Assembly (NCBI GenBank): GCA_030765065.1 | Contig: CM060986.1 | Coordinates: 74,269,573-74,333,572 of the forward strand | Direction of reading: 5' to 3' | From: Deroplatys truncata | Lineage: Eukaryota; Arthropoda; Insecta; Mantodea; Mantidae | DNA length: 64,000 nt | Part shown: piece by piece, positions 8,201 to 60,119 of the stretch | Layout: each line of letters begins with the position of its first letter | How positions within the stretch are numbered: position 1 is the first letter of the stretch | Made by a program: the position numbers and the translations under genes | The notes under the pieces: model-generated | What the model was told of the DNA's origin: nothing | The model's database searches: none | The model's input: the letters and a program-made list of their open reading frames with translations, nothing else

Positions 8201-11200
8201 GTAAGGTTTTTACTGGGGTTTTCCCTTATTCTGAGAAGATAAATGTCAGGACCCCAGCCTCATTTGAGATTTAATTTCAATGTCTTTGCAAACCTGAGTT
8301 GCTCCAGGAAGTGTTAAGCATCCAAAAAGACATGATCTGCTACACCTGGAAATGGGCTAACTGCTAATGAGTGAGTCAAAATGTAACAAGCAACATTTTC
8401 ATTATGCCTGATTTAAACCTTTATATCTTGGATGTTAAACTGTTAATCAGACCAGCAAAATACTAGCTTAGATAATATTTACTAAGCAGCTTAGCTATAA
8501 AAGTATTTTTGCATACTTTCCTTAATAATGTACAGCAAGTTAATGCACTTGATATTACTCCTGATAAACAACTTCTTGCAGCAGCAGGTAAGTCTTCTCA
8601 CTTTGGCAACAATGGCTGAAGTTGAGTCTAGGTTCAGTATTTCATGTCACTGACAATACCATAACCATAATGTAAGAAAAGGTTATCAAGCTATTGCCAT
8701 CACCAAAGATTTGATTTATAGAATACAAGAAACAGTGGTGACTTGTGATTTGCAAGTTTGGGAGGGCGGCAGCTGATGTTTTTGTATTAAGCACCTTTAC
8801 ACAATAGGTTTTATTCTACAATTTACCAAACATAAGAGGTGTGATAAAAAAGTAATGGGAATTTTTGTTTTTCATAAATAATTTTTATTTAATCGTCAAC
8901 ATCAACTTTGTCCCCTTCAAAGTAATCCCCCTCAGATATAATATACTTGTGCCAGCGCTTTTTCCAGTCTTGGAAGCACTTCTGGAACTCATTTTTCATT
9001 ACAGTATTCAGCTCCTTCAGCGATTCTGTTTTTATCTCATCAATGGTGGCAAAACGTCATCCTTTCATAGTTCTCTTCAGCCTCGGGAATAGAAAGAAGT
9101 CGCAAGGGGCCATGTCCGGCAAATACGGTGGCTGAGGCAGTATAACAGTTTTGTTTTTTCCCAAAAGGTCACGAACAAGCATTGAGGTGTGAGCAGGTGC
9201 ATTATCGTGATGCAATTTCCATGAGTGGTTTTGCCACAATTCTGGTTGCTTTCCTCGGATTGCTTGATGCAAACGGCATATAACTTCCAGGTAGTATTCC
9301 TTATTGGCGGTACAACCATAAGGCAGGAACTCCTGATGCACTATCCCATTGTAATTGAAGAAAACAGTGAGAAGAACCGTCACGTGTGATCAAACTTGAC
9401 AAATTTTTTTCAGTCTTGGCTCTTCAGGCAGTTTCCATTGGAACGATTGGGCCTTAGTTTCGACGTCATACCCATATACCCATGTTTTGTCACCTGTTAT
9501 AACCTTCTTTAGAAGTTCTGGATTGTTCCAATGTTGTTTTTGATCGAAATTTAACAATTTCAGAACAAACTTTGCTGCTACACGTTTCATGCCCAAAACA
9601 TCCAAAAAAATTGCTTGGCATGAGCCAAAGGATATGCTGGCATCATCATCATCATCATCATCATCATCCTCTCTGATGGTGATTCGGTGATTTTCCAGAA
9701 CATTTTCTTTACTTCATCCACATTGTCATCAGTAATTGATGTGCTAGGGCATCCGGGGGCGGTCGTCGTCTTCGTCTTCTTGACTCTCTTTGAAACGTTT
9801 ATACCACTCGTAAGCTCTTGTCTTACTCATAATAGATTTGCCAAAAACCACAGTCAACATTTTGAATGTGGTGCTGCACTTTATTCCATTTTCAAGCAAA
9901 ATTTAATGCAAATTCTTTGATCCATCTTTTTTGAAAATAAAAATTTGCGAAGCACTCAAAAACACATAACTTTTTCGACTGTCAACAGTAAACTAAATAT
10001 TCAAAACAGCTGAAAATGCAAACATACATCAGGAACATGTGTGCCAACAAGATAAAACAAAAGTTTTGAATATGGGATGTATAAAGCTTGCAAAATTAAA
10101 ACATTCCCATTATTTTTTTTATATGTAACAAAACCACCATGTAAACCAAATTGTTCAGCATATAATTTCTCTTTCTCATATTTTTCAGTACATACCAAAT
10201 CCTATACATTAGTGCAATTCAGAAATAAAATGTGCACTAAAACAAACCTATCAAAGTGAGCATAAATTAAACTATATTAATAATTATAGTACTATTTTCT
10301 TCAGCAAAAGAAACCATTTTGTCATTTATATTATGCAGTGTGCCCATGTGTTAATGAATATTGGTTAATATTTCAGTGGAGAACACACGGTTTTACAACA
10401 AATGGCTATTCAATGCTTGGTTTTCACAAAATAAATTATTTACAAATCTTAATCACACATACTTACGCATCGATAAGTATGTGTTTCGTAAACACATTTC
10501 TGCTAAGTTCCTGCATGGAGTTTGTTTGCTGTTTTCCCAACTTTATCTCGTATCTAAACGTGTACGTGATGCAAGCAATCAACAACACGTATTGGAAAAA
10601 TGTTCAGGAGTATAAAATGAACTATAAGAAATTTGTTATGCATGTTATGCATCTTGTATATACTTGCCTTTAAATAAAATAAACCTTGACTATAACTAAA
10701 CTGATTAATATTCTTGTAGGTGAAATCCATTCTCCTCTCCTTTTGTTCAGCAAAATGGTTGAAATCAGGGCCTTCTCAATATAACATATGGCTAAAGCAT
10801 TAAGTCTGTCTTTTTGCTATTTACACTGTTAATTACAATTTCTTAACTAATTAATTTAACTTCACTTGCACTGAATTATAACTGGTTAAGTTAGGTATTT
10901 TATACAACACATCCTTCCGAACCCTGTATTCAACTAACCTGTATGTGTGTGAATCACAGCACTATGTAAGGGAGCGTGCACTGTGACTATGTAATGTGCA
11001 AACAAAAGCCACCAACATAGATTGCAGTATAAGGGAAATTTATTTAAAGGTGAGTCGGAATTGTTACACTAACATCACTTAAGTTTACTCACTTAACATC
11101 TTTCGGGAAACGGTTGTTCCCATCCTCAGAAGCTAATCCGACTGGTCCGTGTTGTTGGTGTTTCCGTTTTGTGGACTGGATACTGTGGTGGTGAAATGTA

Positions 11201-14200
11201 CTTCCAGAGGGGACTTGGTGGCGGCAAATCAAAGTTTATTAGATGTGTGTTGTGTTTTAGAATGGTGACTAACATGCCGGAAGAAGAAATAGAAGACCTC
11301 ATACAGCTTACCAATTTGTACATTACTCAAAATTGTTTTAGTTTCAATAAGAAGCTCTATCAACAACCAACAGGTCTAACCATGGGCAACCCACTTTCAC
11401 CTTTCCTTGCAGATCTATTTATGAGTTACTTGGAAACTTTCTTTCCATACATTTTTAAAGTTTGGCACAGATATGTCGACGACATCTTTGCTGTTGTCCC
11501 TAATAGGTTCATACAAGACTCCTTAGCTTTACTAAACCTGCAGAACCAATCAATAAAATTCACCATAGAAATAGAAAAAGAAGGCATGCTACCATTTTTA
11601 GACCTAAAAATCATCAGAGAACAAAAGAATCTAACCTTTGGCATATACAGGAAGCCAACACACTACTAATTACATAAAAAAATAAGAGTTTCAATCCAAC
11701 TACACACAAACATGCAGTACTAAACAGCCTAACACTTAGACTGGTATATATCCCCTTAAATAAACAAGAATACCAGTTAGAATACCAACACATTGTAGAC
11801 ACAGCAATACATTATGGGTACAACAAAACAACAATTGACAAAAAAATTGCAAAATTCAAACGACAGAAACACATCAAAAACACAACAAATCTCAGCCAGC
11901 AAGATAAACAGCTAAAGTTCAAGAAATTCACATACCACCCAGGAACATATCACAAATTTAAGAAGATTTTCATGAAACACAACATCAGCCTAACCCCCCA
12001 GAACAAATTTAACATAGAGAAATTACTTTGTAACAAGTTAAAAGACCCCATTCTACAAGACAAAAAAGCTGGAATCTACAAAATCAATTGTTCAGATTGC
12101 AATAAAGTATATATAGGTAAGACAAAAAGAAACCTAGAAACTAGGCTAAAGGAGCACATGAGATGTATCAAATACAAACAAATAGACAAATCTGTAGTTT
12201 CACACCATTTTTGATCACTAATCATAACATCAAACCCAATATTACATTAGTCAAACCAGCCAAATTTGCAGCCGAATTAGATGCATGCGAGAAGATCACC
12301 ATTCTAAAACACAACACACATCAACACGGGCCAGTCGGATGAGCTTCTGAGGATGGGAACAACCGTTTCTCGAAACATGTGATGTTAGTGTAACAATTCC
12401 AACTCACCTTTAAATAAATTCGATACACATCACTGTTTCTAGCTTCTTTTCAAATATCAATATAAGGGAAATTATTTATTTTCTGCTCTGAATCATTTAA
12501 ACCCTACAGTACTATATTTTAAGTTGCAGTATAATTGCCACCACTGCAGAGAAAGGTGTTTCAGCAAACACTGATCTTATGCATTCCTTGTTATTTTGTG
12601 CAAAGTAATATCTTAGTGTAGCAGTACAGAAAACTAATAACATGGTTTCTTTTTAATGAATTTTAAGGTTATCAGCATATTCGAATGTATGATCTCAGCT
12701 CAGGGAATCCTAACCCTGTGATCAACTATGAAGGTGTTTCAAAGAATGTGACAGGTGTGGGATTTCAAGAAGAAGGAAAGTGGATGTACACAGGAGGTGA
12801 AGATTGCAGTGCCAGAATTTGGGATTTGAGGTTATTGCAACTATTTTTCCACTTTTCTGTAATTGTTTTGGGTGCATTTCTGTTTTGCGTCTTAAGGTAT
12901 CATATCCATTGGCTCAGTGTTATAGTTTTGTGTGATCATTTCACTCGAAAAGAGAAGTAGATAAATTCTCACTAGAAAATGACTCAGTAATATTAGACGT
13001 AGGCAACCAAGAAATTAGTAAACTTCTTGAAGTTGCAGAAAGCTTTAACCAATTCTTCCTGGATTTAATAAACAATTAAATATTAATTACAGAAGCTGGA
13101 GGTAGCATTAAAATTTCTGATATTATGGTTCACAAAATATGTAGTGTCTGAATTTAAAATTAGCCTAAAAATGCCTCCTGAAATAAATAAAATAATTGGC
13201 TCTTCCAGAACAAAGATTCTTTTGGTTATAAGGAAATAATAAAAATCTTAAAATCATGCTTATCCCAAATTAGGCCGCCTCCTTAATTCGGCTGCCCACT
13301 TTTCAGTGATTGCTTCTTATTCCATCTACCATAGTGTTTTTTAACAAGAAACTTAACTCGAAGTTTTTACAAATCTACAAATGTTTATCTCAATTAATGT
13401 GAAGTATATAGAAGAATAGATTTATGTAAGTCTAGTTTGTTGAATGGGTAGAGAAAGTCATGTGAATGTAACACATCAGGGTTGTTTTTGTAATTTATCA
13501 TGCACATAGTAGATAGAGAAGGTTTTGCATTCCACACAAAAATTCAATACGAAAATTACACCAGAAATGCAAGTTTTGATGTCCTTTGAATCCAAGAAAA
13601 GCATTTTTAGACAAAGGTCTATGAGAATGTGTGTGGGGCAGGGATTTTTGCATTCCACCCAAAAATTGGTATCAACTTTCCATTGGAAATACATGTTTTG
13701 AGGCCTCTGAATCCAAAAAATGTATATTTACAGAAAGGCCACGTGTGCATCTGTGAACAGCATAACTAAAAAAAAATCTGATGTGTTACACTCACATGAC
13801 TTTCTCTACTCTTGTACAAACTATTTTTACAAACGCTTATTCTCCATATGCTTCATGTTAATCGAGATATCGAGATGTCAATCTTATTAGTAATGTTCAT
13901 GTAGATGCAAGGGGAATATGCTAGATTTTAAGCGATAGTCAAATATTTTAACGCTGGTTGCTATGTGGCGCATTCCATTCTTTTTGCATGTCCAGGACAT
14001 AAAAAAATGAATAACGAATTTGAGAAAAAGTATAAGTATTGGAAAATTTAAGGGAATAACAAGCAATATCTAGAAAACGGTTCACTCAACAAAAGAAATG
14101 TGTATGACATAAATTGTGTATTTTAACGCGATCTACATTTTTTGTATAGTAAAATTTTGTCTATCTCTTATGGTTTACCAGTTATGCAAAAGTCGTTCAC

Positions 14201-22700: not shown

Positions 22701-25700
22701 TTCACAAACACACCAGTTATTTCCAATGTGAATTCAGTATCTTAACAAAAGTTATCATAGTGCTGGAACAAAAGGCTGAAGACATTCAAAGCTATTGGCT
22801 TTGCACCACTTTTAAAAGCTTTGCTACTTCTATGTTTAATTACATTGCTCTGACCTCTACGCACTCAGCCATGATTGCAACACAAACAGTACTGCATTAA
22901 CACAATCGATGCTTCCCACTAATAAACAATGAGGAATACGGATATCTGCATGGCCATGATAATAAATAGAAGTTAGTTATTTAAGTTATATTTAAGTGAT
23001 GGTGATAAGAATGGCAGTCATACTGTTTCATGAATACTGGCTGGAGGTATTTGTATCATATATGGATGTCATGATTATAGGTGACAACTAAACTCAAGTC
23101 TTTCCACAGGTTCTGCCTGGGGGTGGAGGAAGAAAGAAATGTTCATATAATAATAAAGGTGACCTTTGACTTGTAAAGTAAATATGAAGCATTTCAGGGG
23201 TCACACAATTATATTTTCATGTTTTGTGCCATGTGTATTTACTGATGCTGTTTCTTACCATTCAAAATAAATTAAGGAGATTAATGTTGATGTTTGAAGC
23301 TCCAAACTTAACTTAAAAGAATGCAAGTTATGAACATAGACAGTTAATTCTAGAGTCAAAGCTGCTGATATGAACAATGAATTAAGAAAGATTAAAAACA
23401 GAAGCGTTATTAACAGTGAAGTATTCGTCATGATGTAGATTGAGTCACACTTTTTTTACACTCACCTTCACTAATTAAAGTTACATAAAACAGGAAACGT
23501 TTTCGAGGGCATTCGTCCTCATCGTCAGCGACTGGGTGACTAAGGGTTGCTTTCTCCCATGTCCTCTTCTTCCTCATCCTGCGAATTCTGACCCTGTTGC
23601 CATCTGGTGTTTGGGGCACAAAGTTTTAACACATTGCTTACAGGCGGGATTTCAAAAACGTTTCCTATTTTATGTAACTTTAATTAGTGAAGGTGAGTGT
23701 AAAAAAAGTGTGACTCAATCTACATCATAATGAATTAAGAGTTTGAAAAATTTAATATAAAAATCTTGGGTGTAAAAAATGAAAAATTCCACTGGAGGAT
23801 TCTCACATGGCCAGATCTAAACATATATGCTTATACATATTTATATTTGAGCTGCTTTGTTTTAGCCTAGCATTATGAGGGAGCACCATATGGAGGCTAC
23901 TGTATTAATTTGGCTACTAAGTAACAAATGGATTCATCCTCCAATATTGGTATTAGAAGAAGAAGATAAAATATTCAAATTTCGAAGTTTTGTAAAATAA
24001 ATGCATTGCTAACAAATCATTGCACTACACAACCAAGGCATTAGAGGGGGGGGAGAATATATATATATCTATATATTTCATAAAGAGAGAAAATTGTGTG
24101 TGTGCGTGTGCATGTGGTAGAGTGAGTGTGTGATACTTATGCCAAAACATTTTAATGAACCTTATGCAAGAAAATTTTGCTGAATTTCGCTTGTATGTTA
24201 TAATTGATATGTAATAAAGTTGTTAAAGCCGCCAAAAGGTTACACCATGATAAAACTCTTCAAAGGGCAATAAATAAATCAAAATCCATGTGGCAAATTA
24301 GAAGTGAAATAAAATCTGAGGACAGCATAAAAAAACAACTATTGTTTGGAAAATAACGGCCAGTGTATAAGTTATCCTAAAGATATTTCCGAATTATTTA
24401 ATAAGTTCTATATAAATGTTGCAGAAAAAATGCTAAAAAATCATTCACCAGGAAGTAAAGAAAGGTCAAACCTAAGGCAGAATGAGTGCACAATATTTTT
24501 AATTTCAGTAACAGCAGATAAAATAAAAAATGTTATAACAAAATTGAAGAATAAAAAGTCAGCGAGAATAGATGGATATTCAAACTGCATTATAAAAAAT
24601 GCTCTTCATTTCTAATAGAACCACTGACATACTTAATAAATCTTTTACTGGCGAATGGGCTATTCCCCGAGAGGTTAAAATAGACAAAAGTGAAACCTAT
24701 TTATAAAAAGGGGAGGTTGAAAATTATAGACCAATATCAATAATTTCATCTTTTGCAAAGATATTTGAGCAAATAATATATAGAAGAATAGTAAGCTTCA
24801 TGGATAGATTTAAAATAATAAACGAGAATTAAAATGGTTTTAGGAAAACAAAGTCCACAAATTCTGCACTGATAAATTTTACTGAATAAGTATATTATGC
24901 ACTAGACAATAAACAGTTTAAGAATAAGCATTTTCTTGGACCTTACAAAGGCCTTTGGTTTAGTTGATCATGCATTGTTATTAGAGAAATTATCCACATA
25001 TGGTGTGAGGGGAGTAGCATTTAAGTGGTTTAAATCATATCGAGGTTGAAATTGAACATTTTGATAGAGAAACTGGTGAACTCAAAACTTGGCTTTCAAG
25101 TAGTAATACAATAAAATATGGGGTACCTCAAGGATTGGTACTCGAACCTCTTTTATTTACCTTATACATAAACGACTTCCCAGATAATGTAATATATATG
25201 ACACGTATAAATGTTACACTTTATATTATGAAGTATTGCTGATGATACTAGTATTTTTAAAAAGAGGAGAGCAAAAGCAATCCAAATCTACATATAGATA
25301 AAAGTTTGAAATACATTTTTATTTGGTTCAATGCAAACATGTTAGTTATTAAGTAAAGAGAAAACAGCAGCTCTGTGCTCCCATAATATGATAAAATAAA
25401 AATCAAATATACCCAAGACTAACTTTGAGACAATGCCAAATAAACTATGCAAAAACAAACAAATTCTTGGGTTTAATAGTAGATGAAAATATTAGTTGGG
25501 AACCACACATAGACACTGGCAAAAAAAAAAAAAAAAAAAAAACCTGAATAAAATGTGCAGTCAAATACATGTCTAGTATAAATATACTTAGGGCAGTATA
25601 CTTTGCATATGTCCATAACCTACTAGTGTATGATATTATTTTCTGGGGAAATTCCAAAAATAATGTGAAAGTATTCAAAATACCCCCCTCCCCCAAAAAA

Positions 25701-28700
25701 ATCAGAATTATGGCGAATATTTCAACTACAACTAGTTGTAAACTATACTTTAAACAATTAAGCTTATTGCCTTTGGCAGGTATCTACATATATGAAACAC
25801 TTGTTTATATAAAAGCTCACTTAAATTTATTCAAAACAAATTCAGAAGTTCATATATATATATATATATATATATAACACTAGAGCAAAGCATAATCTAT
25901 TTGTAAATTCACATAGGACTAAACACTCTGAAAACAGCTTCAAATATGCTGGTTTACATGTATATAATAAGCTACCTGAATACATAAAAAAATCTCCAAA
26001 AAATGGTGGAATCTTATACATTGAAGCAATTAATAAAATACAAATGGAGTCAATCTAAACACTTATACTAGCCTCACTCATCTATTTATTTTGCAGAACA
26101 TGTATTGTGAGCATGAGCTCACATCAACTGCCTGTTGACTGTCAGATGAACTCTCGAGTCATATTGTTGAAAGCCTGTGGTGTCCTGTGGTTTTCAAAAA
26201 TTACATAAAGAAGTTTGAAAACCGCATCATGCACTTTGATTCTCCAGAAGCAGACAACCCTCTATTTACTTTCATCCATAGTCCACCAGAGGACACCCCA
26301 GGCTTTCAACAATACAACTCGAGAGTTCATCCGACAGTCAACAGGCAGCTGACGATGTGAGCTCATGCTCATGATACATGTTTTGCAAAATAAATGAGTG
26401 AAGCTAGTAAGTGTGTTTAGGTTGACTCCACTTGTATTACATAAAAAAATATTGATTCGCAACAAAAATTTAAAAGAATGTTATTAAATTTCTAAAAGAT
26501 CACAGTTTTTATATTGTAGATGAATTTCAAAATCTGTAATTATTGTAACCTTTCATCTATGTAAATAATGTATATTATATTTGACGTATCCTACAACATG
26601 TACATGTTTTAATGGATGAATAATAAATGAAATGAATTGAGTTCATCACCAATGTACGCTAAGTAATCATATAAAGAGAGAAAACTGTGACCAGTGTAAG
26701 ATTAGAAATCAGTCAAATGATATTTTACAATCAACAACTGAGAAGGTTAAAAAATTAAAATTAAAGATTTCATGGATAGTTATTTCTCAGAATAAATGCG
26801 AAACATATGTCTCACCACAGTCCAGCCAAATCCCATCAATATTAATGCATGCTAACTACAGTTTATTTACTGGGGTACATTCTGTCCTTCATGCAGGAAA
26901 GATTCAAACCTAACTATCCTCTATTTTGGAAATTATGTCCAGTGGTGTTCAGTGCTTTAACCAACTGAGCAACAAATCCTGGTGGTAGCGGTTTTTAAGG
27001 TCACAAATGGTTACAATATCTGGTCTTTAAGAAGAATAAATAAGGACTGAAAGGATTAAAAAGATATCTCCAAATGGATGGGATATTTTTTTTTCCTGGA
27101 GTGTTTACTCTCCAGTAACTTGCAGCACCAAGAATTTGGGACTCATATGTGCCATTTATTACTTGGCCTCATCATTCTAGGTTCCTATCTTTACAAAGAC
27201 AGGTGTCTTAAAACTCTCACACAATAGAAATGGTCATGGGGCCATAATTGTTAAAAGGAAAGATGTTGAAAGCAAATAATTTACAAAACATAATAAGTAA
27301 GCTACAAATGTAAGAAGTCCATGAGATTTTGGTTTTATTTTTAGGTTGCTTGTAACTACATCAGCTGATCAAACAGCTCGTATTTGGAAGACTTCTGATT
27401 TCACATTGCTTCAAGAGTTAAAACATGAAGCACAGCGATGGGTATGGGATGCTGCCTTTAGTGCAGATTCACAGTACATTCTCACAGGTAAGACGTTTAT
27501 TAGGTCCAACACAAGTGTAGGAGTATTGTTATTGAAATGATTTTGCTTTGTGTGGAGAAAGTATTGCATTCCATGCAAAAATTTGATATTGAAATTCAAT
27601 AATAATTTCAGCATCTTCCAAGGATGTAACATGTAGATTTTCAAGAAAATCCCCCCATTCCAAACTACCCTTTACATGCAAAAACTTTTGATATTTTTTA
27701 TTGCTTGAAAATGGCATTAACAATTTTGATTAAAATATCATAGGTTTAAGATATTTGCATGATAAAGAAAATGTGTATCTAAGTTTCTGCAAATATCCAT
27801 GAAAAGCCCTCTTCATTCCTAATGAATTTTGTATAATTGTGTAACAAAAGCTTGCTGCACAAAAATGTAGGTCTCGTTAAAACCAAAATTTATTTTAAGT
27901 AAATTTTTTGCGGTATTAAGAATTTCTGAAATAGTCGTTATTAGTGGTTTGAATTTTCAAATCTTTGTGCAGTAGAGTCCCACAAACTTGACCTAATGCA
28001 TACTGAGAGGGTAACAAGTTACTGAAATGTTAAGTTTTATGGAATAAGGGTTGGGTTATTCACAACTTGTAATTTATAGATTATTGGTAATTGTTTCCAT
28101 ACCTTACATTTAGCTGTTGTGCTAGGAGTACATCCTGATAAATTTTAAGTTTCTCAATGATGAAGCCATGAATGAATGAATGCTGTTTTCTCTGAATACT
28201 GCTTTACAATGCTTGATTTGTAGAAAACAGAATAGAAGATAGGTCTGCACAATTTTGGATGTCCCATCATTTTTCCACTTCAGTATAGGACCAGAAACTG
28301 TTGACTGGGTTGTATTTAGGTCGCTAAAATCTGCCACATTGACTTGTTATACCTGTGGCCTTCCATCTTTTGATCCTGTTGGAAGTTGTAATCTCCACAG
28401 AATGACACATTCTCGTCCATTGCACTAGAGGTGGGAAAAATAGTTATCACTTTCTCTACCACATACACAGTAGGTAGAGAAGGTATTGCATTCCACTCAA
28501 AAATTCAATTTGGAGATTTCACCTGAAATACATGTTTTGAGGCCCCTTGAATCCAAAGAAAGCATTTTTAGAAAAAGATGCATGTGGATGCTTGTAAACA
28601 TCATAACTCAAAAACAAAAAGTGGAATAAGTATCAAACCTGGTATTTAAGTTTAGTATCTCTCAAAGATAGATGAGACATGAAGATTTTCAAGAAAACTC

Positions 28701-35949: not shown

Positions 35950-36530
35950 AATATTCTATAAATGAACCTTTTTCAGAACTAACTGAAACACATGACCCAT
36001 CATGCTCTCTACAAGTTTCTGTAACACTGGCAGTTCAAGTACATTCCATGCAGATATCACAGAGGTCTTTAATTCCTGCACATTAGCATATTGCTTTCCA
36101 TCATGATAAACTGATCTGCATAAGATTCCCCATATATTCTCCATGGGGTTTAGGTCTAGAGAAACGGCAGACCATTCTATAACACTTAACACCTTTGTGA
36201 TGAAACCAATTCCTTGTGGATCCAGCAGTGTGGATACTTGCATTGTCCTGCGTAAGTATCCCTTCCACTGTTCCAATCCTCTGTGCAACCGGTAAAAGAT
36301 GCTCTTCAAAACAATGTCTTATAGTGTATGGCTTTCATACGACCTGCAGGGAATGCAAGTTGTGCTTTCCCTCCATATCCGAATCCACCTGATACCATCA
36401 GAGATTGCCCCCTTGCTGCCACTTTGAAAACACTTTCTCTTCTTTTCTGAGGTCATGCAAGTGGTGTGCCAGCCATCGGAAGCTCTAAGTTGAATTTCCT
36501 TTCATCAGTGAATTTAGTGGAATCTCATTA
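35950..36530 (-). pseudogene. Tc1-like transposase remnant
   Basis: Minus-strand reading from about 36520: FTDERKFNLE, a VMVSGGFGYGGKAQLAF-like block, then frameshifts, then IEWSAVSLDLNPMENIWGIL (the final catalytic Glu in PMEN) and a C-terminal KTSVISAWNVLELPVLQKLV helix. These match the Tc1/Tc3 order FSDEKKFN / VMVWGAFG / WPAQSPDLNPIENLWG. The N-terminus is missing. The young LTR element sits directly beside it. Confidence 0.85.
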
Positions 36531-37376: not shown

Positions 37377-37423
37377 TAAAATAAGCTTTTACTAATTAAA
37401 TATTATAATAGAGTTTTAGCAAC

Positions 37424-38303
37424 ACTTCACTTGCTTCTCTTACCTAGTTATAAATAGAACCTGTTTCACAGGCTGTTGCTTGCAGCGTCAGCTACCATCC
37501 ACTGATGCATCCCAGGAATTATCCAGGTAAGGTAACTCTGGTGCTGGTTTTAGGAACTTGGAGGTTGAAATATCTTCTGGGATGTCAAAATTTGAGTTAT
37601 TTCTCCTGTTTCTATATGTAAATTATCTCTCAAATGTTTAACTCATTCACATTGTTTATTTTTTCATCAAATGTATTTCCCTTTTTGTGTCATGATGTTC
37701 TTTCCCAAAATGATGAGCAACAGCCAATTTATTCTACTTGTTTGAATTTTAAGTTCCTTAGATGTTCCTTAAATCTCATATCTAAATTTCTTTTCATCTT
37801 ACCAATGTACCATTTAAAGGTACTTTATCAACTTTCTTGGAATTTAAGCAATTTTTTATACTTTTTATATCTACTGGAGCCAAGAAAATTCATGTCCAAA
37901 TGAAAAATCTGGAATCTATCAAATAAAATGTGCCAATTGCAGCAAGATGATGAAAACAAATTTATTTATCAGATTGAAAGAACATCTAAGGAGCCTAAAA
38001 TTTAAACAAGTAGAATCAATTGGTCATCGTTCATCATTTTTGGGAAGAAAACACAACATAAAACGGGAAGTACATTTGATGAAAGAAGTAAACAATGTGG
38101 ATGTTTAGTCTCACACTAGGGAGAAAATTTACATAAAGAAACATGAAAAATAACTCATGAATTGTGATATCCTGGAAGAATTCTAACGTCCGAATTCCTA
38201 ACACCAGCACCAGAGCTACCTCATCTGAATAGCTCTTTGGATGCTAGGAACAGGCTACGAAACAGGTTCTAGTTAAAACTAGGTAAGCAAAGCAAGTGAA
38301 GTA
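37424..38303 (+). mobile_element. Second Penelope-like element fragment (GIY-YIG part) with inverted ends
   Basis: Inverted ends CACTTCACTTGCTTCTCTTA...GAACCTGTTTCA (37424-37471) and GAAACAGGTTCTAGTT...GCAAGTGAAG (about 38258-38303) enclose a degraded GIY-YIG domain. Both ends carry degenerate hammerhead-like cores (CTGACGC with GTGAAAC at left on the minus strand, CTACGAAAC and GGTA at right). No RT is left. Confidence 0.65.
37903..38110 (+). pseudogene. GIY-YIG endonuclease fragment of a Penelope-like element
   Basis: Reads KSGIYQIKCANCSK (GIY with the CxxC of this family), the YIG position altered, then LFIRLKEHLRSLKFKQVESI (Arg and His of the catalytic helix) and GRKHNIKREVHLMKEV. Similar in order to the domain at 12.1 kb but clearly a different family. 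Confidence 0.7.
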
Positions 38304-39649
38304 TTTAAAGTCAATTGTAATATCGAGAATTTTTTAATAGCTTCGCTGTGTGAAAGTCCCCACATAATTTAATTTTTACAAACTGTTGTTCCCCATCTTT
38401 CTGCATGACTATCATAGTTAAATGTTCTGTCTAAAGGTGAGTCCTATCAGATTTGCAGTTGCCTTACATTAAGGGTGAAAACAAATTGCCCTTCACTTAC
38501 CTCACTGCCTTCTTATTCATGATTATTTAAGCTTAATGTCATTAACAACGCAGTCAACATGTTTCCTTCTTACTGCTTTAAAATGAGGTGCTCATGTGCT
38601 TGAAAGGAAAATATGCTGATAGGCATCTTAAGGGATATCAAAAGAAAGTATTTTAGTGTTCTGGAATTAATGTGGTTGCTTCATTTTATAGCCATGTTCC
38701 TGTTGTGATGCACTGCTGTCAGCTGGTGATTGCTACAAATGCAGAACTGTATTTTATGCCTTCCACAAAGAGTTGCATCAAAGAACATCATCTGCAAGAA
38801 ATGTGGAATGTACTACAAAAGTGAGATGGGCTTTGAGAGTGAAATGAGCCATGATAGTATTGTTAGTGATGTCATTGTTATAATATTATATTATATAATT
38901 GCAGCATTGCTTTATAGGAGTTTTGGAAAGGAAGTGGTAGAAATATATTTGCACAGGTGAAGATACTTTCTTTACCTCAATTGCCATTTAACACACTTGT
39001 AATTGCAGATCTCAGAGCAGTGTATGAGGACTTAAAGCACTATCAAAGGAGCAGGATACACAATAAGGTTTTGTAATCAGCTCTTATTGAAAGTGCCTTG
39101 AGAAGAGAAAATGGCGCACGTAAGACATCCACAGTACTAAAGAGTTGTAGCTCCACCTTCAAGCAGGAGAGCAAATTTGTTCATTGGAGATGTTGACTAG
39201 AAAAACAATGTTCCTTCAAAATTAACAAATGATAGCGATGATACAGGTTGCTATCAATGCACATAAATATACAATGCCTTGAACTTCATTGCTTGCTATT
39301 CAAGAAGTTAGGAGGGTGAAATCTTCAAGGTATGTTATTCAGTCATGCTATTTTAGGGACAGATGCTGCCATGTGTTTCTCAAACTGTGCACCTATCTAA
39401 TAGACAGTTCTGCTGGATATGGCAAAGGATTATAATTTAATATGGCTGAGAGTTATGAAGGAATGTAAAATATTTTGACTAGAATAAATTATTTCTAATA
39501 TAGAGATATGTTGCCATTACTTTTTCCAATCCTAACCATTATTAATGGTTTCCAATGTGGATTGCCATTATCCAAAAATTTCCCTGAAGTACTGCATATT
39601 TTCACACATGCTGATGCATTACCTATTACTTTAAGACAGGCATCCATTA
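38304..39649. other. No recognised feature
   Basis: Contains a few short Cys-rich frames (reads CCDALLSAGDCYKCRT near 38700) that I could not place. Otherwise plain AT-rich DNA. Confidence 0.3.
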
Positions 39650-41904: not shown

Positions 41905-43294
41905 CAGAAATGTAATGTAATATTTATTTCATCATTATTACAATAATACAAATAAAGCTTACATCTAAAACTTATGTCTAGTGCACCAGTTTTCTAGCTC
42001 CCCCATATTTAGCCCCTAGGCTGTATATATGGGATAAAGCTACTATACCATCTCTCCACTTTACAAACTATGCTCGATCAGCTGTACCTTTCTTAAGCTC
42101 CTTATCCACTTATCCCTTGTGTTGCCTAAAAATGTCCCCATCATTTTAATTGTTTCTACTTTTGTGCTTCCCAACATTCTTAATGCTACTGCTTCTTTGT
42201 TTAGCTTATCCCATTTTTTATTCCATATAACCTCTCTCCACCTTTTAACCTTATCACATTCTATTAGACAATGAAAAGTACTACCCGATTCATCACACAT
42301 AATACATCTCCCCGAACAATTATATCCATTCCTTTTTAAAAATATTACTCCTGTGCGCATCCACGCAAGACCTACTCTACCAAATTGATTACATATATCT
42401 ACATACTTCTCCCTTCCCCAATTTCTTTTAACTGATTTATACAAGATCAATGATCTTTTATCCTCAAAACTAGCCCATATCTCTTGTTTCTCGATATCTT
42501 CCACCCTCAATCTCACTTCTTTCCAAAACCCACTGTTATTATATTTATCTAATAGGAAAATATTCCTCATGCCAATTTCTTTTAGGACATTTCCCAACTC
42601 CCCTAACCAACACTCTTCTCCTAGGACAGCTTTTTGAAACTGTATACATTCTTTTAATATATTATTATCTTCTAAATTTAAACATCTATACCAATACTTC
42701 AAAATTCTTTCCACTATTATACCTTTTCTCCCTACCCTTCCTAGCTCTGCCAGTGCCACGCCCCTTGGTGAACTCTTGGGTAAACCCAAAACTTCTTTAC
42801 AAAACATTCTATGGACTATATCAATCTTAATCCATCCCTTTGCCACCCCCCATATTTCTATTCCATATAATATTTTTGACTCTACTACAGCTTCATATAG
42901 CCTTTCCAACCAGTTCATTGTTAGCGTGGGTGTTTTGCACAAGCAAACTCTAACAGCTTTCATCGCTAGCTTTCCTTTCAATTGTGCATATTTAGATTGT
43001 GCTTCCCACTTCCCGTTGCTTGAGAATCTAATCCCCAAGTAATCAAATTCTTTTACCACCTCTATTTGCTCTCCATTTATATACCATCTTTCCTCTCTTT
43101 TTAATTTTGATCCTTTCTTGAACACTATTATCTTGGACTTTTTTGTATTCACCTTTAGCCCCCATTCCATACAAAATTTTGCAATTTCATTGATAGCATG
43201 TTGCAACCCTATCACTGTTACTGCCCCAGCGCAGAAATGTATTAGATTGGCCGGGAAAGGATGTACAGAAGGGCCTAGAAAATTAAACAACAAA
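41905..43294 (-). mobile_element. LINE, 5'-truncated, 3' tail at left
   Basis: The minus-strand frame 43293-42061 is followed by a 3' UTR and an AAATAAATATTACATTACATT tail near 41915-41935. The 5' edge abuts the 3' end of the repeat at 43295. Same family as 14814-16363 and 56525-56815. Confidence 0.8.
42061..43293 (-). CDS. C-terminal part of a LINE reverse transcriptase (410 codons, open)
   Basis: The longest open frame of the window. It covers the RT thumb and C-terminal region: EWGLKVNTKKSKIIVFKKGS, INGEQIEVVKEFDYLGIRFS (typical LINE post-palm block), a long helical connector, and a zinc-finger-like CIMCDESGSTFHCLIEC (CxxC-x7-H-x4-C). The stretch LIHFCAGAVTVIGLQ stands where the FADD catalytic box should be, so the key Asp residues appear lost. 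The frame is intact over 1.2 kb, suggesting a fairly recent insertion. Fingers, palm and endonuclease are missing through 5' truncation. The ATG is not a genuine start. Confidence 0.8.
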   Translation of the reverse strand: MLFNFLGPSVHPFPANLIHFCAGAVTVIGLQHAINEIAKFCMEWGLKVNTKKSKIIVFKKGSKLKREERWYINGEQIEVVKEFDYLGIRFSSNGKWEAQSKYAQLKGKLAMKAVRVCLCKTPTLTMNWLERLYEAVVESKILYGIEIWGVAKGWIKIDIVHRMFCKEVLGLPKSSPRGVALAELGRVGRKGIIVERILKYWYRCLNLEDNNILKECIQFQKAVLGEECWLGELGNVLKEIGMRNIFLLDKYNNSGFWKEVRLRVEDIEKQEIWASFEDKRSLILYKSVKRNWGREKYVDICNQFGRVGLAWMRTGVIFLKRNGYNCSGRCIMCDESGSTFHCLIECDKVKRWREVIWNKKWDKLNKEAVALRMLGSTKVETIKMMGTFLGNTRDKWIRSLRKVQLIEHSL

Positions 43295-44104
43295 TCTGAT
43301 GTGATACATTCACATGACTTTCTCTATCCTCTATCATTTATTAATGGTTATACAAACTAGTCTTACTAAAGCTTATTTTTATATCTACTTCATTTTAATC
43401 CAATAAAGTTTTGCAGAAGTAGCTTACATTACACACTTTGTTATAGATATAAAGGGAAAAGTCAAATGTTTAAGAACTGGAAGCTATACTGGCCATAAAA
43501 GTCCATAGTGTTTCAATAGAATTGCAAGAAACAAGTGAATGTTAACAGGATTTTAAAAGAATGGCTAAGTATTGAACAATTCAAACCATTAATAACGGAA
43601 AGGCTGATGCCACTAAAAAGTTATTTGAAATATATTGTGTGTTTCAAAGAGATCTACATTTCTTGTGCAGTACATTTTTTGTCTATCACTTGATGTTTGC
43701 CAGTTATACAAGATTATACAAAATTTCCAGAAAATTTAAGATATACATTTTATATGTAATGTAAATATCTTTAATATATTAATATTTTAATCAAAATCAT
43801 TAAAGCCATTTTTTTAGAAAAATCAAACATTTCCAAAAATGTTCCATATAAAGGATAGTTTGGGGTAGGGGGATTTTCTTGAAAATCTTTTTTTTCGCAT
43901 CTTTGGAAGGTACTGAATTTAAATATCCAGTTTGGGTTGATCTGACTTTTTGTTTTTGAGTTACACTATTCACGTGAACCTTTTTCTAAAAATGCTTTTG
44001 TTTTGTATCCAGGGGGCCCAAAATATGTATTTCTGGTGAAATCTTGGTATAAAATTTTTGGGTGGAATGCAATACCTTTTATATCTACTAGCTACGTGGA
44101 AAAT
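43295..44104 (-). mobile_element. ~0.85-kb repeat, older subfamily, minus strand
   Basis: Starts TCTGATGTGATACATTCACATGACTTTCTC (hairpin ATGTG/CACAT intact); the far end is worn (TACGTGGAAAAT). Forms an inverted pair with the copy at 44154-45108, 49 bases apart. Confidence 0.7.
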
Positions 44105-53430: not shown

Positions 53431-55352
53431 ATCCAAATGCTAAATGTTATTACCAATTACACAGATAAATGTTTTGTATTATTTAGCAAATATTTATCTA
53501 GTGACAGAAAATACTTTTCTTCACTTCAAAAGACTGCAATGGTTAAAATAATCACTACACCATCCAGTAAATGTAACATTAAAATAAATGATATTTACTG
53601 CAGCTTCTTTTAATTTGTTTGTTTTAACCTGCTGCACATAGAGGCTTCAAAGCAACTTTATTGAATATGTTTAAATAATAATGTTGTTATTTCAAAGTAT
53701 ACGTAAAGTTCTGTTCTGTAATGAAGTATGGACAGTTTCTTTTATTGCTTCATTGTACTTTTTAAACTCTTTGTAAATATTTTTTAATTCAACAATAGTC
53801 TAGGTATTATTTTTTACAATACAGTAAGCTGTGGCTAGATTGATTATCGTTTCTATTCACTTATACAGATTTCTGCATATCTGAGAAGGCCAATCTTTTG
53901 TTAATCTTGTTAATGAAGTTCTGTTGCATCTTATTGTATACTATTAATAAGTGTTTTTACGACTGACAAGGAAAGTTCTCACTGTAATGAGGCAAAACAT
54001 GTTCCAGTTCCAATCATTTGAGTGGTGAATAACCGTTTTTTTTTTGGTCCAGCTGAAGTTGAGAATACAAACACAAAATATGTTCTGCCAATTAAGATTT
54101 GATAGTCGATGTGTTTATTCACTCCAGAAATAAATGCAACCATACATTGGTTTTTTATTTTTATGTTTTTCCAGTTCAGTAAATTTTATTATACATTAAG
54201 TATAATGCAATTCTGCGGAAATAATGGAACAAATAAATATATAATGTCATACATACAAGTATGTACATGAACATGTGTTGAGCTTACAGGCCAGTGTCTG
54301 TCCTCATTACACTATTTCACATATAAATTGTCTTTCATTTCTATATTTAATAAGGCAGATATAGTTTTTAAATGTTAGTTGAAAAATCAATATAAGTACT
54401 GCATGAAAAATATGTTTTACATCTTGTAATTGAATTGGTATAATAGTGATACCATTGAAAAACATTGCTGTGAGAAACTGAATTGAACATTTGAAACTGT
54501 TAAGAACAGATGCTATATATGAACATTATTTCAGGTTGCAGTGCTCTTTTTATAACCTAATTTAAGAGACATTCTTATTTCTCATAAATCTTTAGATATA
54601 ATTCAGAAAAATGATTTGATTACCATAGGTATCTTATTGTAGGATAAACACTTTTCTTCATCTAAAATATCAAAACTTAACAATGGAAAAGTCAATTCAA
54701 GAGAATATTTGGAATCACGATAGAATTAATTGAGAACAGTAAAACTAAAACCTTTAACAGTAATTGACAAGTTTCGACATAATGAATGTGCCAGCAAGTG
54801 ATAGCTTGTTGGCTTAGTGACGCTTATTGGTGTTGCATAGTTTTGCCAATTCAAGATTAAATTATAATTGTGTACCTATGACTCAACACATGTGGTAAAG
54901 CAGGGACAATAATGAAATTTGGTTCAATGGGTGATTTTATTATTAAATGATTGTATCAACACTCAAGCATATTCACATTAATGCACCATACTGGCCACCA
55001 CAGTTAGTTAAAAGTTCTTAGGTTCAGTAAGGAATAAACCCAAGTCTACTCGCACAAAAGACAGGTGTTATGCCACAGGGACAGACCTTACCCTCCATAA
55101 AAATATTGTTAAGACTTGATGAATTTTAGAAATGGGTGACTCACATATCTTTTTATGTGATATTGGTTCTGTTTCAGAAATGTTAATATAGTTTCCAACA
55201 TAATCATATGATACTATATTTATTTGCACTACACTTTTCATACATTGATGTACCTATACAAAAACCTTGCTGAAGTAATTTTAATGCAGTAGACATTATG
55301 GTGGCCCACAGAATATGTTTTGTTTTCTTTTCTAGCTATAGGTAATACTAAC
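53431..55352. other. Nothing recognised
   Basis: AT-rich DNA downstream of the last identified calmodulin-like exon; probably contains its final exon or intron and 3' UTR. An acceptor followed by a frame at about 53769 was considered but its polypyrimidine tract is poor. Confidence 0.35.
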
Positions 55353-55464
55353 CTTCATAGTTAATTTTTCCATCTCTGTCAATATCAGCCATTGCCAACA
55401 TTTCATTCAATTGTACATCGGTTACACTCTCACCAATCATATCCATAGCAGATTTTAGCTCATC
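55353..55464 (-). CDS. Calmodulin-like exon, rest of EF-hand 3 and EF-hand 4
   Basis: 112 nt. Acceptor TTTCAG ending at 55465, donor GTTAGT at 55352. Encodes DELKSAMDMIGESVTDVQL and ADIDRDGKINYE. A small ribozyme-bearing element lies only 41 bases upstream of this exon in the preceding intron. Confidence 0.88.
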
Positions 55465-56269
55465 CTGAAACATAAGTACCTATCTATATTAATAAATGAT
55501 ATGTATTGACTAATTTTGAAGATTTAGAAGCTAGTAACAGTGATGTGTCATAATTTAAGATAAAGGCAGTTGAGGATTGTTACACCTCCAAATTCACCTT
55601 TGGAGGTTCATCATCCCAGCACCAGAGAACACCACTAGCCACACACATCCCCCAGACGATGACCGGAAACATCAGTTGAGAACATGCTGACGATGGGAAC
55701 AAGCCATCTCCCGAAACGCGTTCAAGTAAGAATATTTTAGTGATCTAGTGTAACAATCCTCAACTCCCTTTATCTTAAAAAATGATATGTACCTTGGAAA
55801 CTGAAGCACATTTAACTGAAATAATATAACAACAATAATATGTAGTTCCTATCGTCATCCTCATTGTCATCAACAACATAAAATTAAAAAATAGACAGCA
55901 CTCCATCGTACAATCTATGCAGAGGTTGCCTACTTGTAACTTTTTAGGCCCCAAGACATAATTCCAGTTTGTTAATGTCTTGGAGACCAACTATAATCAA
56001 TTCCATATCACTTATGTTCCTTTTTTTGGGGGGCGGCTGCTTGAAGTTTTACAGTGCTTTTAACCTAGAGCTTAGAGTTCATTCATCTTCTCACTATAAG
56101 GGAAAACCCTGAGTGGAGGGGCGGGGAGGAGAGTCTTATCCAGATAATTTGCCCTAACTGAGATTTGAACTGATCTCTTGAATGTTAGGTGGACATGCTA
56201 CCCGCACACCACAGAGGTGGGCTAGTTGTAATTACTCTAGTATTCAAATTTTACAGTTTCTCCATTCGT

Positions 56270-59300: not shown

Positions 59301-59977
59301 TTTCCTTGGAAGATATTTGACATAAATACCAAATGTATATATATATATACATGACTTAAGGTTTTTGATTTGTGCAGCTCATAGTCTTGCATACATATAA
59401 GGACCTTTTTTAAAATGCCCTTTTTGAATTCTTAGGGAGTCCTTAAAGCACACATTTTTGGAAAGTCATGATACTAAAATTTGAGACAAGTATAGCATTT
59501 CTGCCATACGTGACAGGCATGTGCTGCGGGTGCATCCTTTATTCTCCTGTGTAAAGGCTTGTGTACTTTTTAGCTGTTAGTGCGATTAGAAAAGGTTGAA
59601 GCACAATATTTTTAACTTCAGTTTTAACTAGCAATGTTATGTCCCCTTCTCTGTGAGATACTTACAAACTGCATGACTTCTTGTGCAGTGCACATCGCAG
59701 AATTAGCAATGGTAGTAGAGAATGCAGCAAATAGCTTAGAAGAGTACTTAATTTGTTTGCAAAAATAAAACAAGACATCTGTCTTTAATTTTGGAACAAT
59801 AAAATAAACAATTTAAATACACAGAATACATACCTGAATGACTAGCTTCATTGAGAAGGTCATGAATGAGTTCATCTCTCACTTGGATTCCCAGGTTCTG
59901 CAGCATAAACTGAAGCTCACTTGCTGTCACTCGGCCATCTCTGTTCCTGTCCAACAACCCAAATGCTGTCCGCAGAT
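55353..59977 (-). CDS. Calmodulin-like EF-hand protein (three internal exons)
   Basis: Exons 59977-59834, 59002-58845 and 55464-55353 join in phase to about 138 codons. Order: LRTAFGLLDRNRDGRVTASE (EF-hand 1, canonical loop), a degenerate EF-hand 2 (ASHSGNGLINETEF, first loop Asp residues replaced by Ser), an insert with DTSSDDPDDIT, AFRVFDRDSNGYITKDE (EF-hand 3) and ADIDRDGKINYEG (EF-hand 4, up to the penultimate loop codon). Known: calmodulin-type proteins bind Ca2+ through DxDxDG loops and regulate targets. The wording recalls insect neo-calmodulin-like proteins rather than calmodulin itself; that is from memory. The first exon (Met) and last exon (after Y-E) were not found, so the gene may extend beyond 60 kb and below 55.3 kb. 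Confidence 0.88.
55506..55779 (-). mobile_element. Small Penelope-related element (274 bp) with hammerhead motif and 12-bp target duplication
   Basis: AAATGATATGTA at 55494-55505 is repeated at 55780-55791. Inverted ends TTAAGATAAAGGCAGTTGAG (55556 on) and its inverse at 55758-55777 match with one mismatch. The left tail (minus strand ACACATCACTGTTACTAGCT) is nearly identical to the tail of the full Penelope-like element at 12.4 kb (ACACATCACTGTTTCTAGCT). The right arm carries a full hammerhead motif on the plus strand. No coding. Confidence 0.85.
55674..55765 (+). ncRNA. Hammerhead ribozyme motif (best-preserved copy)
   Basis: AGTTGAG (55674-55680) pairs perfectly with CTCAACT (55759-55765) as stem I. 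CTGACGA (55687-55693), stem II TGGGA...TCTCCC-type, GAAAC (55713-55717), stem III GAAACGC with GTGTA, cleavage triplet GTA (55750-55752). All core bases match CUGANGA...GAAA...NUH. Confidence 0.75.
56036..56222 (-). repeat. tRNA-derived SINE, same family as 7851-8300
   Basis: Minus strand: CTGTGGTGTGCGGGTAGCATG (A box) and AGTTCAAATCTCAG (B box), then a body with CCACTCAGGGTTTTCCC and GTGAGAAGATGAATG. Confidence 0.7.
56275..56311 (+). repeat. (CT)n microsatellite
   Basis: About 18 CT units. Confidence 0.95.
56525..56815 (-). pseudogene. LINE fragment, same family as 41905-43294
   Basis: The plus-strand text (CTTCCCCAATCTTTTTAG, GCTAGCAAACATTTCCTGTT, TCTCAATGTCTTCAATTCTG) aligns with 42410-42560 (CTTCCCCAATTTCTTTTA, CTAGCCCATATCTCTTGTTT), that is the connector between RT and zinc finger. 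Full of indels. Confidence 0.65.
56851..56905 (+). ncRNA. Hammerhead-like remnant
   Basis: TTGAAGA (56859-56865), perfect stem II GCCCAT...ATGGGC, then GAATAC and TGAGTG. Resembles the 39.8-40.1 kb motifs; stem I is not evident. Confidence 0.3.
56960..57635 (+). repeat. ~0.85-kb repeat, older subfamily, 5'-truncated
   Basis: Begins within the CAGTATCTTTCAAAGAT block and runs to GGAGAAGTCATGTTAATGTAACAG, where the terminal hairpin is worn. Confidence 0.7.
57690..57815 (-). repeat. tRNA-derived SINE-like sequence
   Basis: Minus strand A-box-like GCAGCTCAAGTGGTAATAGC and B-box-like GATTCAAGTCCC. A second, plus-strand B-box-like GATTCAAATTC lies at about 58398. Neither folds as a full tRNA by eye. 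Confidence 0.45.
58845..59002 (-). CDS. Calmodulin-like exon, EF-hand 2 (degenerate) and start of EF-hand 3
   Basis: 158 nt. Acceptor TTACAG ending at 59003, donor GTACAG at 58844. Ends in phase 0 after YITK. Confidence 0.88.
59834..59977 (-). CDS. Calmodulin-like exon, EF-hand 1
   Basis: 144 nt. Acceptor TTTCAG at 59983-59978, donor GTATGT at 59833. Starts with two bases of a split codon, ends with the first base of Gly. Confidence 0.88.
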
Positions 59978-60119
59978 CTGAAACATAAGGCAGATTAATC
60001 AGTTCTAAATTTCTTGTTCTGTGGTGTTCCTTTGGTAATGCTAAATGGACTACAACACAGGCATGCTTCCCATTGCAGACTTTATATTGGGAAGCCAGAA
60101 GGAAAATGATGCAGATCAA

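Follow-up and report, generated by a model that had tools for sequence, protein, structure and literature searches.

Penelope-like elements (PLEs), their ribozymes and their inverted pLTRs are already known, and several described systems resemble the locus examined here. In the available text on Adineta vaga, the Pen families have inverted pLTRs with a tail optionally on one of them, and the EN-containing PLEs of that species share with ours head-to-head pLTRs, an optional single tail, a short target-site duplication and 5′-truncated copies (PMC3846280). The Poseidon PAc enzyme of Anolis cuts and extends both target strands, and its reverse transcription begins at two adjacent internal start sites with the tail between them; in vitro, the start site was no different between strands and ribozyme mutants were without effect on insertion (PMC11167929). 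As in our case, where the start sites are proposed, that element combines an RT and GIY-YIG protein, a hammerhead near the pLTR-ORF junction and two start sites flanking the tail (PMC11167929); its ORF start overlaps the ribozyme, whereas here the ORF stop lies inside it (3′ copy). Similar, too, are the minimal type I hammerheads known from PLEs and Terminons, which in the excerpted source have a pLTR core that lacks a real stem III and is thought to be dimeric (PMC7761336). Metazoan retrozymes likewise are short, bear a ribozyme and hold no full gene, but the accessible part of their description presents tandem repeats of about 300 bp with canonical type I hammerheads, in contrast to the single, head-to-head PLE fragment with a minimal core found here (PMC7229834). 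How PLEs integrate, why their copies are inverted so frequently and what role the ribozyme has are left open in the available portions of this literature (PMC3846280, PMC11167929, PMC7761336).

In this study, we relate these accounts to a 274-bp insert in a 64,000-nucleotide stretch of Deroplatys truncata DNA (the window) and to its sister insertions elsewhere in the genome. Taken alone, the insert is a PLE insertion of the ordinary sort, though an instructive one. More interest attaches to its sisters, which hint at how Penelope elements copy themselves into DNA and yield predictions that can be counted: a tail on exactly one arm of each two-arm insertion, target duplications about 12-13 bp long, a single template for both arms and a common stop site. 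Unlike the A. vaga account, as far as its available part goes, we counted tail placement, duplication length and the sharing of a template over dozens of insertions, and found half of the short-insertion arm ends to stop at one site (PMC3846280). The main text on Poseidon PAc gives no in-vivo count of paired ends, which were counted here (PMC11167929). A literature search covering titles, abstract openings and part of the journals found nothing on the paired-tail or start-site points, and the counted regularities may be new.

Anatomy of the insert

The insert at 55506-55779 consists of two head-to-head pieces from the 3′ end of one PLE family. The left one bears the PLE 'tail'; the final 30 ORF codons, the ribozyme and the pLTR end are in the right one. 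Read 5′ to 3′, it comprises a tail (42 nt, inverted), a pLTR end (38 nt, inverted), a filler (11 nt) and a sense arm (183 nt). The perfect 12-bp target duplication described in the initial annotation is indeed exact on both sides. Arms are placed on a genomic reference copy (L012; ref), and the features are as follows.

55494..55505, no strand: left target-site duplication AAATGATATGTA, exact match to 55780-55791
55506..55547, minus strand: PLE 'tail', inverted, confined to the left arm; sister insertions have 42-nt tails that are the same or almost the same
55548..55585, minus strand: inverted arm, the last 38 nt of the pLTR, 92% complementary to 55748-55785 and placed at ref 1727-1758
55586..55596, no strand: junction filler; the junction is single in the genome
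55597..55690, plus strand: sense-arm start with the last 30 PLE ORF codons and UGA stop, frame LWRFIIPAPENTTSHTHPPDDDRKHQLRTC and stop, agreeing with the ORF end of L008
55672..55677, plus strand: initiator-like TCAGTT with proposed RNA start A55674, at the inner-end pile-up of short sister insertions
55674..55680, plus strand: AGTTGAG, 5′ strand of a long-range helix with CTCAACT at 55759-55765; three further PLE families in the window keep the complementarity with differing letters
55687..55722, plus strand: minimal type I hammerhead core, with stem II at 55695-55698/55709-55712, a palindromic CGCG tetraloop and cleavage predicted after 55722
55723..55779, plus strand: remaining pLTR to the tail-less end, the putative second start site for reverse transcription, from arm comparison with sister insertions
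55780..55791, no strand: right target-site duplication AAATGATATGTA, exact match to the left one

Inverted ends of 20 bp, as had been annotated, are real, although their length was understated, the complementarity extending over 38 nt; the two outer ends are nevertheless unlike each other, the 42-nt tail being on the left arm only. At the arm junction, the 9 nt at 55584-55592 recur without mismatch, in inverted orientation, at 55599-55607. The insert had also been described as lacking protein, yet 55598-55690 encodes the end of the PLE ORF, in a frame that agrees with ORF ends read by hand from the genomic copies L008, L012 and L043. The UGA that ends this ORF is the UGA of the hammerhead CUGACGA, an identity also found, by hand, in the inverted arm of the PLE at 11 kb, not in its right arm. 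This ORF end, with its stop in the hammerhead, identifies the insert as a severely truncated PLE in the inverted pLTR arrangement published, in the text available, for A. vaga (PMC3846280). Near-identity to the PLE tail at 12.4 kb did not hold up: similarity to the 11-12.5 kb element is 78-89% in pieces of 28-88 nt (BLAST), and nearer relatives elsewhere in the genome reach 96-97% over 183 nt.

These features agree with those of EN-containing PLEs, namely a pLTR with an inverted copy and optional tail, a short duplication (12 bp here, most often 12-13 bp in the sisters) and an autonomous partner encoding RT and GIY-YIG, of whose protein the window copy holds only the last 30 codons. The sister locus L043 has an 809-codon open frame from stop to stop that matches RVT_1 (E 1.5e-11) and GIY-YIG (E 2.4e-5). 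A protein search gave five relatives, one of them named Diploptera; a PDB sequence search with the PLE proteins gave nothing useful.

Sister insertions in the window and the genome

BLAST, repeats and ORF relatives revealed four further PLE loci, of related families, in the window, at 11.0-12.5, 23.4-23.7, 26.0-26.5 and 37.4-38.3 kb, all of them head-to-head inserts. The first three have duplications of 12-13 bp and a tail on one arm only (the tails are divergent and were matched by eye). In the first, the RVT_1 match is below and the GIY-YIG match above the curated cut-off.

11028..12473, plus strand: PLE family B, inverted pLTR and ORF end, RT/GIY-YIG ORF remnant, pLTR and tail; 13-bp duplication TATAAGGGAAATT
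23376..23740, minus strand: PLE family C, a second short insert, built like that at 55506-55779; 12-bp duplication AATGAATTAAGA, tail only on the sense arm
25981..26450, plus strand: PLE family D, head-to-head insert; 13-bp duplication TACATAAAAAAAT, tail only on the inverted arm
37421..38305, no strand: PLE family E, two GIY-YIG ends placed head-to-head, too old for duplication and tail to be read

A search of the genome assembly (4.29 Gb, 818 contigs) with the 274-bp sequence gave 2,294 candidates. Among the 40 of these that were scored, seven including the window copy were full-length-like matches, differing in arm stops and flanks; two of the six others (L005, L007) are the 5′ ends of full-length PLEs. 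For the first set of sisters, 33 more loci were added to L001-L008, giving 41, with L008 and L041 being the same place; all were chosen by similarity to the window copy. In the reference copy L012, bases 1-153 are not PLE and other copies match from 154. Another copy, L011, had been considered as full-length reference and was dropped, its upstream sequence not being PLE.

This first set contains 29 two-arm insertions, and a sense arm only was found in 11 of the 33 further loci and in one extra arm of L029 (12 sense arms in all, the partner being sought within the fetched stretch). The tail is on exactly one arm in all 29 two-arm insertions (19 inverted, 10 sense; corrected Fisher p = 5e-8), and leaving out L001-L007, which were selected by a tail-bearing query, it is so in 22/22 (p = 1.5e-6). 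L005 and L007 had at first appeared as two-tail exceptions (2 both, 17 inverted only, 10 sense only, 0 none; p = 3e-6), a reading we discarded when longer stretches (L042, L043) showed their true right ends to be tail-less. Target-site duplications scored at least 9 in 23/29 insertions in the first run, compared with 2/300 mispaired controls, rising to 25/29 with the L042 and L043 ends and to 26/29 with L033 by eye; their length is most often 12-13 bp (scored range 8-18). Arms of one insertion agree at 88% of diagnostic bases, versus 71% between insertions (n = 25; 0/20,000 permutations as high). Where arms abut or overlap, 15 of 18 junctions overlap by 1-4 nt (p = 7e-4), a count that leaves out L009, whose inner end was not entered, and that BLAST ends may inflate. 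No inverted arm of this set ends at ref 1700-1706, and the sense arms there were selected to be longer.

Some loci of this set merit separate mention. The PLE insertions at 3049-3758 of L015 and 3169-3760 of L019 lie in what is apparently the same target, around TTAAAATACACAATTTAT, inside a common repeat; a target preference is possible. In L009, L015, L020, L033 and L040 the inverted arm is in two gapped pieces, as though the centre of a longer palindrome had been lost following insertion, and L033 has a run of A near 3788, between the truncated tail and the right duplication.

Similarity to the window copy played no part in the choice of a second set. Genome-wide, the 23-nt pLTR end is matched exactly at 3,468 places (control, 0), of which we took the first 100 by coordinate, all on one contig, requiring the exact 23-mer on both arms. 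Of these first 100 listed ends, 58 form 29 head-to-head pairs within 2.5 kb, and none is tail-to-tail. Pair offsets are 112-204 in 22 cases and 405-1785 in seven, with none between 204 and 405; this separate short class rules out a smooth length range with short inserts at one end. The remaining 42 ends are without an exact head-to-head partner; among 11 that were read, six have a degraded one (at most 5 errors, offsets 48-189) and five have none. As the unpaired ends of both sets show, some insertions are one-ended or have lost an arm.

We read every one of the 22 short pairs, and one long pair. Of the 44 inner ends of the short pairs, 22 fall at ref 1649-1659 and one below (p = 1e-9), with 11 at 1660-1699, five at 1700-1706 and five beyond. 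The pile-up surrounds ref 1653, the A of TCAGTT, whose CAGT is 13 nt ahead of the ribozyme. The window copy differs from this commonest type, its sense arm running 77 nt beyond the initiator-like start. By script, 20 of these 23 insertions have one tail and three have none; on reading, all 23 have one, L085 and L091 bearing a tail with a small deletion and L065 a tail-bearing outer end further right. Duplications scored at least 9 in 19/23, compared with 10/300 mispaired controls.

Two of the short pairs, L063 (C1:21172599-21172810) and L065 (C1:21875187-21875507), are near-duplicate loci with a common left flank and common breakpoints and would be one if counted strictly; in L065 a second sense copy is appended, giving an inverted-sense-sense order. 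The ends at ref 1700-1706 (L069, L083, L086, L087) form a slight excess by the predicted cleavage site at 1701/1702 (5/44, p = 0.04 uncorrected), so that occasional use of cleaved RNA is conceivable.

Hammerhead core and distal helix

The annotated hammerhead core is present, as CTGACGA, stem II and GAAA, with a short or absent stem III as in the minimal type I. Reportedly, Cervera 2014 and Lunse 2017 are the works cited for such hammerheads in PLEs and Terminons. A strict search for core and stem II gave three matches in the window, compared with an average of 0.09 over 100 dinucleotide-shuffled windows; all three lie in PLE ends and have an extra U following A9. Among 63 genomic copies, the core alone is intact in 51 and core plus stem II in 43, and CGCGTT directly follows GAAA in 46. 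No Rfam hammerhead family matched at E ≤ 10, in the whole window or in 55450-55830 alone; such a match is a library test and, in the accessible parts of the minimal-hammerhead papers, not a defining feature. Possibly the models miss this core owing to the extra U. Cleavage had been placed at GTA 55750-55752, a version in which the bases adjoining the core are unpaired; the core instead predicts it after 55722 (A-CGCG-U-U|C).

The annotated 7-bp perfect stem I is a true complement, AGTTGAG/CTCAACT, which we retain as a distal helix instead. An initiator-like A lies 13-14 nt before the hammerhead CUGA in window families A (that of the insert), B, C (there within TTAGTC) and D, and family E has a CAGT at a similar place on one arm. 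TCAGTT resembles the arthropod initiator, consensus TCAGTY. Counted from this A, the first 6-7 nt are complementary to a stretch that starts some 84-94 nt further downstream, immediately ahead of the pLTR end, and both strands vary in concert from family to family: AGTTGAG/CTCAACT (A), AGTCGGA/TCCGACT (B), AGTCAC/GTGACT (C) and AGTCAAC/GTTGACT (D). In L043, of family A, the match is 6 nt; none was found in the right arm of B, in either arm of E or in a further old copy in L020. The extra U and this helix, which would connect the pLTR end with the putative 5′ end of the RNA, set the present core apart from the PLE and Terminon hammerheads as described in the accessible passages (PMC7761336).

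In folding calculations, the monomer prefers another hairpin (-9.0 kcal/mol, versus -2.3 for the hammerhead stems), and two RNA copies are predicted to pair through AACGCGUU. This computed dimer is in line with reports, in the portion of the source available, that minimal cores of the PLE type may act as dimers (PMC7761336).

Origin of the insert and a proposed route of integration

We regard it as very probable that the insert is a one-off PLE by-product. Its mobilisation by Penelope machinery, proposed in the initial annotation, is borne out by the target duplication, the inverted pLTR ends and the hammerhead core; the accompanying view, that it belongs to a non-autonomous, ribozyme-bearing family of mini-elements copied as a unit by Penelope RT, now appears very improbable. 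That view could draw on the 3,468 exact PLE ends and on short head-to-head inserts being the commonest two-arm class (22/29 pairs, in the sample of the first 100 listed ends). However, the 20-nt arm junction has one exact match in the genome, 0 with one mismatch and 15 with two (reversed control, 11 with two), so that the insert represents a single event, and a replicating lineage for the window copy is excluded. The genome-wide search that had been suggested did yield candidates, but none with the same junction: the six look-alikes each have their own junction and flanks. There are thus no several insertions with one internal structure; the short inserts that were read vary in breakpoints, fillers and target duplications, except L063 and L065, and the arm pieces of L001-L007 match one ordinary PLE copy at 89-98%. 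Slightly less probable still is a metazoan retrozyme, in which a self-cleaved or circular RNA, as had also been envisaged, would be reverse-transcribed and then inserted. The core intact in 51/63 copies and the few inner ends adjoining the predicted cleavage site would fit such an origin, but the outer ends of the insert lie at the pLTR end or tail end, matching PLE reverse-transcription starts and not the ribozyme site. In addition, the window copy has inverted arms and shows no tandem or permuted form as signature of a circular RNA, the monomer folds preferentially into another hairpin, and ribozyme mutants leave in vitro insertion unchanged (PMC11167929). Annotators may take the case as a warning: a short insert that bears a ribozyme, a target duplication and inverted ends can be a one-off by-product rather than a new mobile family.

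With good confidence, we explain the whole as a single insertion of an EN-containing PLE (RT and GIY-YIG) truncated to its 3′ end. The PLE protein would cut both target strands, usually 12-13 bp apart, to judge from the duplications observed. Each strand's 3′ end may then prime on the same PLE RNA at one of two different, adjacent start sites, which would leave the 42-nt tail on one arm only; the tail pattern is observed, and the priming is modelled on the published lizard enzyme. The one-tail rule implies that the strands of a two-arm insertion use different sites, beyond what independent choice gives. Both cDNAs would head for the RNA 5′ end and be joined head-to-head, often with the 1-4 nt overlap or short filler seen at junctions. 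In short insertions the arms often stop at what may be the RNA start, where the pile-up lies, and the RNA 5′ end would be the A of TCAGTTGAG; the hammerhead would be carried along within the PLE leader. The window sense arm extends past this point, so its RNA template reached upstream of the proposed start. We judge a template 5′ end at CAGT to be likely, and priming at both ends to be rather likely.

Several observations weigh against parts of this scheme. The absence of a strand difference in start site in the lizard system in vitro leaves the one-tail rule without direct support there (PMC11167929), and gene conversion between arms would imitate a common template. The 9-nt inverted patch at the junction would fit a published idea, set out in the available text on A. 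vaga, that the inverted arm arises when the first cDNA, or an antisense RNA, folds back and primes itself, and not from a second target primer (PMC3846280), and the bases that arms of one insertion have in common would fit it too. Fold-back, however, predicts the same outer end on both arms; the tail is on exactly one, and in most insertions the arms stop at clearly different reference positions, and we therefore consider this origin doubtful. The pile-up before the hammerhead, in turn, could mark reverse transcriptase halting at RNA structure and not an RNA 5′ end, since it is located at the base of the long-range helix (+1 to +7). Such a halt would rather be expected where the enzyme first meets the helix, at its 3′ strand, and not after it has copied the whole ribozyme, and an initiator-like CAGT or TAGT stands 13-14 nt before the core in four families; a structural stop seems unlikely, if somewhat less so than fold-back.

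Returning to two-ended priming, we tentatively propose, as a scheme that could well be right but falls a little short of probable, a coordinated reaction with one start site per strand on one RNA, cDNAs running to a CAGT 5′ end, and that end paired to the pLTR end near the start sites. With cDNAs stopping at the RNA 5′ end, the commonest two-arm product would be a 'leader hairpin' of about 185-275 bp, holding the ribozyme and the initiator-like site and not a copy of the gene. If the two-ended reading is true, this insect genome may contain several hundred to a thousand or more leader hairpins, extrapolating from the 44 of the first 100 listed ends that belong to short pairs, and full-length copies would need an RNA with a second pLTR downstream.

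Other features of the window were noted in passing. A 420-aa frame at 42061-43323 (minus strand) has a weak RVT_1 match below the curated cut-off and looks like a LINE remnant, and a frame at 35956-36318 (minus strand) containing DLNPMENIWG, without Pfam match, is presumably like the end of a Tc1/mariner transposase. Just downstream of the 11-kb PLE, a stretch at 12.67-12.8 kb, read by hand, is one that we take to be an LST8 exon. The insert itself lies in the intron between EF-hand exons at 55352-55464 and 59748-60119 (both minus strand), which we assume to be like those of insect Eip63F-1. The duplication nearer the 3′ splice site (AG 55465-55466) starts about 28 nt away from it, and splicing may therefore be affected.
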